DNA of 55,360 nucleotides from Patescibacteria group bacterium (GTDB lineage: Bacteria > Patescibacteriota > Patescibacteriia > Buchananbacterales > SURF-54): positions 1 to 55,360 of the forward strand of contig JAHIRB010000041.1 in the NCBI GenBank assembly GCA_018818885.1, written 5' to 3'. This document shows positions 5,011-7,639 of this stretch, piece by piece (the stretch's first letter is position 1; every line of letters begins with the position of its first letter). Under the pieces are notes generated by a model. That model ran no database searches. It saw only the letters and a program-made list of their open reading frames with translations, and had not been told where the DNA came from. Position numbers and translations under genes: made by a program.

Positions 5011-5038
5011 TTGACTAAATACGCATACATACTATAAT
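5011..5038 (+). promoter_or_regulatory. Promoter of the 5078-5272 gene
   Basis: TTGACT (5011-5016), a 16-nt spacer and a consensus TATAAT (5033-5038). It gives a leader of about 33 nt that ends in a very strong SD. Confidence 0.65.
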
Positions 5039-5077: not shown

Positions 5078-5272
5078 ATGAGTGAAAATATAAACTGGCT
5101 GGCGGTAGAAGCAGAAATGGCTGTTCGAAATTTCGGAGATAGATGGTCAGAATTTGGCATAGGTTATGGTGAACCAGAATTCGTCGACATTGTAAATCCA
5201 AGCAATCCGAACCGCATAAGAGATCGAAAAATCATCGAAGCTCGACGAAAAAAAGGAAGAAAAAAATGCTAA
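5078..5272 (+). CDS. Small hypothetical protein with strong SD
   Basis: A 64-residue orphan protein I do not recognise. It has a tryptophan- and glutamate-containing N-terminal half and a very basic C-terminus (RRKKGRKK) that could contact nucleic acid, though this is speculative. Support for a real gene is mainly contextual: AAGGAGGGGGTC directly precedes the ATG, and a consensus-like promoter lies about 40 nt upstream. It sits directly before the T-box promoter. A weak TTTAGA/TCTAAA hairpin follows the stop. Confidence 0.6.
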   Translation: MSENINWLAVEAEMAVRNFGDRWSEFGIGYGEPEFVDIVNPSNPNRIRDRKIIEARRKKGRKKC

Positions 5273-5308: not shown

Positions 5309-5337
5309 TTGACAAAAACTGCAATATTTGCTAACCT
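5309..5337 (+). promoter_or_regulatory. Promoter of the T-box leader
   Basis: TTGACA (5309-5314), a 17-nt spacer and TAACCT (5332-5337) preceded by TG at the extended -10 position. The transcript should start near 5344, just before the proposed Stem I. Confidence 0.55.
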
Positions 5338-5343
5338 ATACAT

Positions 5344-5788
5344 AACATTGAAAACTATTTAAAACCTATGAAGTGTGTCCTTTGATTGCGCGGGCTTGCC
5401 CTTAAGCGAGCGAAGCGAGTTGAAGGGTTGGGCACGCTGAGGTGAACTATGCGATAGTGTAGTTTCGGCAGGCACCGTAACCATAGCCTAACTGATGTCG
5501 CCCCGAGTTTATCGAGGGGGTCATTGAGTCAGTAAAGTGATTTTGATTTGTTTGCTGACGAATCATTTTTTTGTTCCAGCACGATTAATCATTATCTGGT
5601 CCGCCGAAGCTCGAATATAATGAGAGCGTAGGCGGGAATAAAGGTGGCACCGCGGCTTTGTCTCGCCGGAGTCCGAAAGGACGAAGGCGGAACTTGTCTC
5701 GCCGAAGCTCGAAAGAGCGGAGGCGGAATAATAACCCGTCCTTTGTCCAATAACTTTTTAAGTTGTTGTATGAAGGGTGGGTTTTATT
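5344..5788 (+). promoter_or_regulatory. T-box leader (tRNA-sensing transcription attenuator)
   Basis: The T-box core AAAGGTGGCACCGCGG is at 5640-5655. Its left arm AAAGG can pair with CCTTT at about 5740-5744 to form the antiterminator. The competing terminator pairs AACCCGTCCTT (5733-5743) with AAGGGTGGGTT (5773-5783), 11 bp including two G-T pairs, followed by TTTATT. Stem I appears to be closed by CTATG (5366-5370) and CATAG (5482-5486), with an upper helix GTGTC/GGCAC and a distal arm AGGTGA-ACTA-TGCGATAGTG-TAGT resembling the AG-bulge and apical loop. The bulge TGGC predicts a tRNA with discriminator G. Possible specifiers are AAC (Asn, 5479-5481) or ACC (Thr, 5480-5482); Asn fits discriminator G better. 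Loops carry GC-rich palindromic inserts. The first gene downstream is the 94-residue orphan. Confidence 0.8.
5659..5729. repeat. Two tandem GC-rich palindromic units inside the T-box antiterminator loop
   Basis: Two roughly 36-nt units both start TTGTCTCGCCG. Each contains its own small hairpin (TCCGAAAGGA and CTCGAAAGAG) and ends GGCGGAA. They lie between the T-box sequence and its pairing partner. A related unit sits just upstream at 5599-5636, and another at 5849-5873. Confidence 0.65.
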
Positions 5789-5848
5789 AGTAACTGGCTT
5801 AAAATTTTTGAGCAAGTATCGATAAAAATTTTACTAGCAGTTACTAAT
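5786..5848. repeat. Nested inverted repeat after the T-box terminator
   Basis: ATTAGTAACTG (5786-5796) is an exact inverse of CAGTTACTAAT (5838-5848). Inside, AAAATTTTT (5801-5809) is an exact inverse of AAAAATTTT (5824-5832). It lies between the T-box terminator and the 94-residue gene. It may be an RNA hairpin or an inserted miniature element. Confidence 0.6.
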
Positions 5849-5926
5849 CCGCCGAAGCTTTAGCGTAGGCGTATAACATAGATACAACTGGTCAAAAAGA
5901 CCGATAACCATGGAGGGATCTTGAAA

Positions 5927-6211
5927 ATGTCATTAACCAAAGAAGAACAGGCTGCACTGGAACAAACACATAATATCAAGATTACTTGTGTAATCAGTTT
6001 TACCGCATGCACAGAATGTGGTAAACGACGTTATCGCGCAACTGCAAATACGTCCGGTAAAATAATTCACGTATGTGAGGATGGCCATATTCAAAATGGT
6101 CAAGCTCCAAAAATCACTGTGGCCGTCATCGATCTACAAAAAATTCCTGGGTATGAAAAATCTAAACCACTTGACGTACTGCGTTACAAGGGTGGAAACA
6201 GAGGTTTCTAA
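5927..6211 (+). CDS. Hypothetical Cys-containing protein downstream of the T-box
   Basis: A 94-residue orphan. The middle carries CTEC followed about 20 residues later by CEDGH, a spacing that could bind a zinc ion, but no named zinc-ribbon family is recognised. The ATG at 5927 is chosen because GGAGGG (5912-5917) lies 9 nt upstream; a TTG two codons earlier would be too close to the SD. It is the only gene between the T-box terminator and the next transcription terminators, so it is the best candidate for T-box control. A GGTC/GACC hairpin lies just before the SD. Confidence 0.6.
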   Translation: MSLTKEEQAALEQTHNIKITCVISFTACTECGKRRYRATANTSGKIIHVCEDGHIQNGQAPKITVAVIDLQKIPGYEKSKPLDVLRYKGGNRGF

Positions 6212-6226
6212 CTATGCGACGTCACG

Positions 6227-6261
6227 AGGGGAAGCAAAACTACAGTAGCTTTGCTTCCCCT
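6227..6261 (+). terminator. Hairpin after the 94-residue gene
   Basis: AGGGGAAGCAAA (6227-6238) pairs with TTTGCTTCCCCT (6250-6261), a perfect 12-bp stem with an 11-nt loop. No T-run follows, so it may block exonucleases as much as terminate. Confidence 0.5.
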
Positions 6262-6298: not shown

Positions 6299-6329
6299 GG
6301 CCGGGTGCACGCACCTGGCCCTTGTGTTT
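6299..6329. terminator. GC-rich hairpin shared by convergent small genes
   Basis: GGCCGGGTGC (6299-6308) pairs with GCACCTGGCC (6311-6320) apart from one mismatch. It lies between the 94-residue gene and the oppositely directed 53-residue gene. On the minus strand it is followed by TTTTCTTTTTATAT, a good U-tract. Confidence 0.65.
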
Positions 6330-6349: not shown

Positions 6350-6511
6350 TTATTTCGTGGGTTGTAGAGATAAAATCTCCGAATTCATTTTGCCAACTTT
6401 AATACCATCGGGATCATTCCTCTTTAAAGCCTCTGCAATTAGATGTGCAATATTGTTGCACCCTCGAGAAGAAAACTCCCCTTCCTGTGGTAATACTGAT
6501 TTGATTAACAT
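6350..6511 (-). CDS. Small 53-residue hypothetical protein
   Basis: A short gene recognised from its signals. ATG at 6511 is preceded 9 nt upstream by GGAGG (6521-6525). Further upstream is a promoter with TTGAAA, 17 nt and TAAGAT. The stop is TAA at 6350-6352, and a terminator with a T-rich tail follows. The protein is soluble, has one Cys near residue 18 and contains a helix-like stretch NNIAHLIAEALKR. I do not recognise a family. The promoter, SD and terminator together make it likely that this is expressed. Confidence 0.55.
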   Translation of the reverse strand: MLIKSVLPQEGEFSSRGCNNIAHLIAEALKRNDPDGIKVGKMNSEILSLQPTK

Positions 6512-6636: not shown

Positions 6637-6665
6637 TTGACATAACACACGTAAACTATTAAAAT
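6637..6665 (+). promoter_or_regulatory. trpS promoter, leaderless
   Basis: TTGACA (6637-6642), a 17-nt spacer and TAAAAT (6660-6665). Transcription should start about 6672, at or within 2 nt of the ATG at 6674, giving a leaderless mRNA. This separates trpS from the T-box about 0.9 kb upstream. Confidence 0.7.
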
Positions 6666-6673
6666 ATATAGGT

Positions 6674-7639
6674 ATGAAGGAAATAATATTATCCGGTATT
6701 CAGCCAAGTGGAAAACTACATATTGGAAATTACTTGGGCTCATTGCGCAATTTTGTTGAGTTACAAAAACAGCATGAGTGCTACTTTTTTATTGCTGATT
6801 ATCATTCTATATCAGAAGATTACGACCCAAAACAAAAACAAGCCCAAGTTATTGAATTGACAAGAGACTATTTAGCCGCTGGACTTGACCCAAAAAAATG
6901 CACAATATTTGCTCAATCTCACCTATCCCAGCACACAGAACTTGCATGGATTTTTAACTGTGTGACTCCTATATCATATCTGGAGAGGATGACGCAGTAC
7001 AAAGACAAAGCTTCCAGACAAAAGCATAATATTAATATGGGGCTATTTGACTACCCGGTTCTTCAAGCGGCAGATATTTTAATGTACAAAGCCACTGCTG
7101 TGCCTGTTGGCATTGATCAAGATCAACATGTAGAATTGACAAGACAAATAGCACGATTTTTTAATAAACGTTTTGGCAATACTTTTACTGAACCTAAAAC
7201 CCTACATACCGACACGCCTAAGGTAATGAGTTTACTAGAACCGGAAAAAAAAATGTCTAAAAGTTTAGGCGATAACCATTGCATATATATTGATGACGAA
7301 CCAGAAGCGATAAAATCAAAGCTAGCAAAAGCTGTTACAGACACTGGTGACGGCAAGGGCGTGGGTGCACAAAATTTACTTGATTTAATTAAAATATTTA
7401 GTGATAAAAAGATTCATGATAAATTTGTAAATGATAGCAATGCTGGTAACTTAAAATATTCGGAACTTAAAGCACAACTAGCTACAGACATTGCTGAATA
7501 TTTTGCTGATTTTAGAAAAAAGAAAAAAGAAATTTCTAATAATGACGTAAAAAAAATACTGAGTGATGGTGCAACAAAAGCTAGTAAAGTAGCAACCCAG
7601 ACATTAGACGAGGTTAGAAAAAAAATTGGCATACGATAG
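6674..7639 (+). CDS. trpS: Tryptophanyl-tRNA synthetase
   Basis: Class I aminoacyl-tRNA synthetase that attaches tryptophan to tRNA-Trp. The 321-residue length is normal for the compact bacterial form. The ATP-binding HIGN signature is at residues 16-19 in SGKLHIGNYLGSL, and the KMSKS loop is exact at residues 193-197. Conserved stretches such as PVGIDQDQHVELTR and the DYPVLQAADILMY helix match TrpRS. The start is ATG 6674 with no useful SD, as expected for a leaderless message. The next gene starts 1 nt after the stop and is probably co-transcribed. Confidence 0.96.
   Translation: MKEIILSGIQPSGKLHIGNYLGSLRNFVELQKQHECYFFIADYHSISEDYDPKQKQAQVIELTRDYLAAGLDPKKCTIFAQSHLSQHTELAWIFNCVTPISYLERMTQYKDKASRQKHNINMGLFDYPVLQAADILMYKATAVPVGIDQDQHVELTRQIARFFNKRFGNTFTEPKTLHTDTPKVMSLLEPEKKMSKSLGDNHCIYIDDEPEAIKSKLAKAVTDTGDGKGVGAQNLLDLIKIFSDKKIHDKFVNDSNAGNLKYSELKAQLATDIAEYFADFRKKKKEISNNDVKKILSDGATKASKVATQTLDEVRKKIGIR

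Follow-up and report, generated by a model that had tools for sequence, protein, structure and literature searches.

Downstream of a 94-amino-acid (94-aa) open reading frame (ORF) in the window (the whole stretch of 55,360 nucleotides analyzed here) lies trpS, and upstream of it lies an RNA leader that we read, with good though not full confidence, as a transcriptional tryptophan T-box with a minimal Stem I, turning on the 94-aa ORF rather than trpS. From 5' to 3', the leader is made up of the following elements.

5309-5337, plus strand: promoter-like site TTGACA-17 nt-TAACCT, from a reading of the sequence (TTGACA at 5309-5314, weak -10)
5372-5438, plus strand: minimal Stem I, starting at about 5372, with lower helix AGTGTGT (5372-5378)/GCACGCT (5432-5438) and a palindromic upper arm
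5429-5431, plus strand: specifier UGG (Trp), in a 3' bulge and followed by G; 48 of 51 leaders have TGG at this site
5444-5465, plus strand: Stem II hairpin, compensatory changes in 5 of 9 pairs
5466-5489, plus strand: Stem IIA/B pseudoknot, CGG with the CCG inside CCGTAACC (5475-5482), corresponding in the Rfam alignment of relative L068 to the model's CGG...CCGUUA
5491-5533, plus strand: conserved helix ACTGATGTCG...GAGTCAGT, 8 pairs, 5 with compensatory changes, 100% paired
5601-5636, plus strand: hairpin at the Stem III position, built from a palindromic repeat
5640-5655, plus strand: T-box core AAAGGTGGCACCGCGG, comprising the A1 5' strand, the bulge UGGCACC (5645-5651) and the A2 5' strand
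5657-5728, plus strand: antiterminator loop holding two copies of a palindromic repeat that most relatives lack
5733-5786, plus strand: intrinsic terminator competing with the antiterminator, arms 5733-5756 and 5760-5783, then a T run

The first-pass annotation had recognized a T-box core, a competing terminator and a TTGACA promoter here, and all three hold up. The antiterminator can form through pairing in both A1 (AAAGG, 5640-5644, with CCTTT, 5740-5744) and A2 (GCGG, 5652-5655, with CCGT, 5736-5739), and a covariance model of the leader class that was built without the window matched at 5420-5546 (97.4 bits, E 5e-19), its sole match on both strands of the 55-kb window. The 5' strand of the terminator includes the 3' strand of the antiterminator (CCGTCCTTT, 5736-5744), so that the two hairpins are mutually exclusive. 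As for the promoter, its -10 is weak, which is why a consensus scan missed it; TTGACA is found upstream of the T-box in G001 (L031) and G004 (L033) as well.

A scan with the Rfam T-box model RF00230 had been proposed as one check, silence counting against a T-box. RF00230 gave no match in the window, even at E ≤ 5, nor in the 1.35-Mb genome, for which the Rfam count is zero although at least two T-boxes (Trp and Thr) are present. However, the same model does match relatives of the same leader class, namely, L068 (96.8 bits, above the gathering score), L052 (55 bits) and L066 (31 bits), and the gathering score, which the leader in the window does not reach, is a curation cutoff rather than a mechanistic feature; the miss is probably due to the minimal Stem I and the palindromes within the leader hairpins. 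Since RF00230 was silent on the window, we turned to the relatives instead, where a search for the T-box core pattern returned many T-boxes, a subset of which share the architecture of our leader. In a covariance model of ten such leaders, 14 pairs showed compensatory changes and 95.6% of cells were paired, a level that no shuffle reached and that compares with only 30 to 44% in slid controls. By these comparisons, the leader is a genuine T-box, and it appears to belong to a class of transcriptional Trp T-boxes with a minimal Stem I that occurs mainly in one class of Patescibacteria: 9 of the order's 12 genomes carry it, as do 50 of 381 in the class, and it is rare elsewhere in the phylum. The open-access literature, to which the search was confined (subscription journals were outside its scope), yielded no paper joining T-boxes with Patescibacteria, Parcubacteria or the Candidate Phyla Radiation.

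Within the leader, the lower helix of Stem I, directly below the UGG bulge, covaries: in the 42 leaders that form at least 6 of its 7 pairs, most positions show compensatory changes. Selecting the pairing by best complement inflates the percentage paired, but the diversity of pair types speaks for a true helix. The hairpin part of Stem IIA/B covaries too, while its CGG/CCG pairs are invariant. Across the class, Stem I is a bulged hairpin of variable length (a long form is seemingly kept in L116, L122, L125 and L138), and none of the AGUA/GAA loop E, the distal T-loops and the AGAGA/UGxRA (IDTM) motifs that were looked for turned up in the window's Stem I. Its upper arm (5399-5427) is a repeat-like palindrome (CCCT...GAAGGG) differing in length and sequence between genomes (the window, L037, L035 and L102). 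Further downstream, GTCAGTAAA (5528-5536) is complementary to TTTGCTGAC (5551-5559), with one G-U pair, and a similar pairing in several relatives makes an extra pseudoknot possible. Another palindrome, CGCCGAAGC...GCGNAGGCG, has four matches in the 55-kb window, all at 5602-5871: one at the place of Stem III, two in the antiterminator loop and one after the terminator.

With four palindromic repeats in or beside it, a weak -10 and an orphan ORF behind it, the leader might be suspected of being a decaying relic invaded by palindromes, one of the two outcomes allowed for in the first-pass annotation. We consider this very unlikely, given the intact specifier, bulge, pseudoknot, covarying helices and pair of alternative hairpins, the position of the repeats in hairpins or loops and the arrangement, shared with relatives, of a T-box followed by a tiny ORF. 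The other outcome, the orphan ORF as the target, is the probable one.

Which amino acid is sensed had been read differently before, from AAC (Asn) or ACC (Thr) triplets inside CCGUAACC. The Rfam alignment of L068, however, identifies CCGUAACC as the Stem IIA/B motif, which removes the AAC/ACC specifier, and the triplet at the specifier position is UGG; TGG is absent from that site in only 3 of 51 leaders, 2 of which carry insertions. The discriminator G predicted from the bulge did prove correct: the genome's own tRNA-Trp, with anticodon CCA, has G73 and a 3' end, GCCA, that complements the bulge UGGC. Behind leaders of this class we found trpS, trpB/trpB2, trpE-like genes with trpG (L140 and, by eye, L229), trpD-like genes plus BtpA and EamA-like transporters, several of them identified by eye. 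Taken together, the UGG specifier, the GCCA end of tRNA-Trp and the Trp genes behind the class lead us to conclude, on comparative grounds, that the amino acid is tryptophan. Asparagine tRNAs often carry G73 as well, which would fit an Asn reading, but the CCGUAAYC motif maps to Stem IIA/B and also occurs in leaders preceding trpS, trpB and trpE, and threonine is further disfavored by the genome's Thr T-box (before thrS), whose bulge is UGGA, and by its tRNA-Thr, which has U73. Asn or Thr specificity is thus extremely improbable and was rejected on account of the IIA/B mapping of CCGUAACC and the UGG specifier in 48 of 51 leaders. A tryptophan specifier also makes the neighboring trpS, 0.9 kb away, the cognate gene, so the earlier description of the T-box as unlinked to any synthetase gene no longer applies.

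Other products encoded behind Trp T-boxes (L066, L068, L102, L117, L118, L122, L125, L129 and L134) resemble aspartoacylase, glutamate-cysteine ligase and low-molecular-weight phosphatase or are unassigned; they may take part in the salvage or uptake of Trp. T-boxes of other specificities were noticed along the way. The second T-box of the same genome (L047; bulge UGGA) precedes an acetyltransferase gene and thrS. It is one of several transcriptional thrS/glyS T-boxes (L032, L040, L045, L047 and L062) in which Stem I seems to be nothing more than a hairpin whose apical loop carries the specifier (CUACCAA for Thr), as the literature describes for short Stem I; Rfam missed this form in this genome.

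Downstream of the terminator, the window contains the following features.

5927-6211, plus strand: 94-aa ORF, first after the T-box, with CxxC and CxxxH; Shine-Dalgarno sequence at 5912-5917
6228-6260, plus strand: hairpin after the 94-aa ORF, lacking a U tract
6350-6511, minus strand: 53-aa antisense ORF with Shine-Dalgarno sequence, ending at a hairpin (6299-6320) with a U tract on the minus strand
6637-6665, plus strand: TTGACA-17-TAAAAT, promoter-like site of trpS, some 9 nt upstream of its ATG
6674-7639, plus strand: trpS, tryptophan--tRNA ligase (TIGR00233, 328 bits; PF00579)

As noted before, the first ORF past the terminator is the 94-aa orphan. Its codon score of +0.160 per codon (in-frame mean, 0.242; out-of-frame mean, -0.232; out-of-frame maximum, 0.138) is coding-like. 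It matched no Pfam or NCBIfam family, and neither 55 relatives nor GTDB contigs contained a homologue, the weak matches at E 0.016 to 0.06 being taken as chance. An AlphaFold model from the single sequence (mean pLDDT, 50.7) was uninformative. Just upstream of the T-box promoter, a 64-aa ORF (5078-5272), whose strong promoter-like site lies at 5011-5038, has coding codon usage and a C-terminal Cys and likewise matched no Pfam or NCBIfam family.

Behind the T-box in relatives come one or two tiny ORFs, most often with a terminator-like hairpin at their end. About 14 relatives have a tiny ORF of 40 to 116 aa with Cys pairs (zinc-ribbon-like), a dozen of them directly behind the T-box and two (L223 and L244) found through an independent DNA-pattern search; in L034, by exception, the sole tiny ORF is 58 aa and Cys poor. 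A Gly-Trp/Phe-Gly motif (G[WF]G) is present in 12 of 13 tested Cys-pair ORFs, which were selected by their Cys pairs and not by this motif, against a shuffle mean of 0.43. Clear homology links tiny proteins such as those of G004, G010 and G005 (scores, 134, 107 and 96), and Pfam gave only scattered weak zinc-ribbon matches for the relatives' tiny ORFs. Strong matches to a profile of these ORFs were its own members only, and because the weaker ones did not lie near this T-box class, the family could not be widened. The 94-aa ORF itself lacks G[WF]G and shows no convincing similarity to the relatives' tiny proteins (hhalign probability, 0.6%; best shuffle P value, 0.006 among 13 comparisons). 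The proposed check for the same T-box in front of the same gene in relatives therefore came out positive for the arrangement of T-box and tiny ORF but not for the 94-aa protein, which we regard as the positional equivalent of the relatives' tiny ORFs, with no claim of homology.

What, then, of trpS? It is the gene of the cognate amino acid, and it might be controlled by the T-box via long readthrough, with the tiny ORF as an operon bystander. In several relatives, synteny extends over RNase J, the T-box, the tiny ORF, trpS, a methyltransferase and Glu dehydrogenase; in L127, a trpS-like gene directly follows the T-box; and, in the window, the lack of a U tract at the hairpin 6228-6260 makes readthrough toward trpS conceivable. 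We nevertheless judge control of trpS to be unlikely. The order T-box, tiny ORF(s), trpS occurs in G001, G002, G004, G007, G010, G011 and G273, but in five of these (G002, G004, G007, G010 and G011) a terminator-like hairpin plus T tract, detected by a scan that also reported hits in 5 of 15 reversed controls, lies between the tiny ORF and trpS, and where read in these relatives, trpS begins at its own promoter-like site. The separate promoter previously assigned to trpS in the window is confirmed as a promoter-like site, and similar sites were found before trpS in L033 and L052. An antisense gene lies between the T-box and trpS in both the window and L037. Moreover, the tiny ORF stands alone in L105, L110 and L113, where the next gene is on the opposite strand, and is followed by genes other than trpS in L066, L107, L115 and L119. 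With trpS in relatives mostly placed behind a terminator-like hairpin and a promoter-like site of its own, and elsewhere not the next gene, it is probably not the target.

We therefore return to the 94-aa ORF as the regulated gene. In the mechanism that we propose, the CCA anticodon of uncharged tRNA-Trp would pair with UGG (5429-5431) and its 3' GCCA end with UGGC (5645-5648), which would stabilize the antiterminator and allow transcription to pass the terminator (5733-5786). The gene turned on would be the 94-aa ORF and not trpS, which has its own promoter-like site behind the antisense ORF. The T-box class, the specifier, the matching tRNA end and the recurrent placement of a tiny ORF behind the T-box are established by sequence comparison; tRNA binding, tRNA-dependent antitermination with readthrough and tiny-ORF expression under Trp starvation we infer. 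The tiny products, most of them zinc-ribbon-like, might then act as small effectors under Trp starvation.

A precedent for this outline is the Bacillus subtilis at operon, in which a Trp T-box controls rtpA, encoding the small zinc protein anti-TRAP (PMC11255114). Both systems have a Trp T-box before a small protein rather than a synthetase. Here, the Cys pairs make the tiny proteins candidate zinc binders, but the sequences differ from that of anti-TRAP and the relatives' tiny proteins carry G[WF]G. TRAP (mtrB, PF02081) was found in none of 239 genomes of the class, our own included, whereas the B. subtilis control was positive; because TRAP is absent, the tiny protein may work like anti-TRAP, with another partner, but is not classed as anti-TRAP.

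With the T-boxes described by RF00230, the leader shares the specifier, Stem II, the IIA/B pseudoknot, the T-box bulge, the antiterminator/terminator switch and the cognate tRNA end; it differs in its minimal Stem I, its specifier in a short 3' bulge and its lack of a distal T-loop module. A Stem I without the tRNA-elbow module is also seen in the short-Stem-I T-boxes of actinobacterial ileS, but those are translational, whereas our leader has a terminator. Among T-boxes as a whole the distal module is optional, those with a short Stem I lacking it; its loss has been called typical of the translational kind, whereas transcriptional T-boxes are said to need it (PMC7583486). We thus regard the leader as an apparent variant of the T-box, not a new mechanism, in which a transcriptional switch goes without the elbow module.

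Phe-type T-boxes (GAAGUUCCCUC, bulge UGGU) were observed in four other genera (L064, L069, L277 and L278), where tiny ORFs follow and not pheS; in L064, a 58-aa ORF ending in CHAC is followed by a terminator-like hairpin and then by more than 1.5 kb with no gene on that strand. We tentatively speculate that, in Patescibacteria, transcriptional T-boxes for aromatic amino acids (the minimal-Stem-I Trp type and the Phe type) may drive stand-alone tiny starvation effectors, those of the Trp type forming a new G[WF]G zinc-ribbon family, and that an anti-TRAP-like logic may have arisen without TRAP. The existence of transcriptional T-boxes without the elbow-binding module runs counter to the essential role ascribed to it, and the leader model provides a Trp regulon for an uncultured group with reduced genomes, tagging several proteins as Trp regulated.
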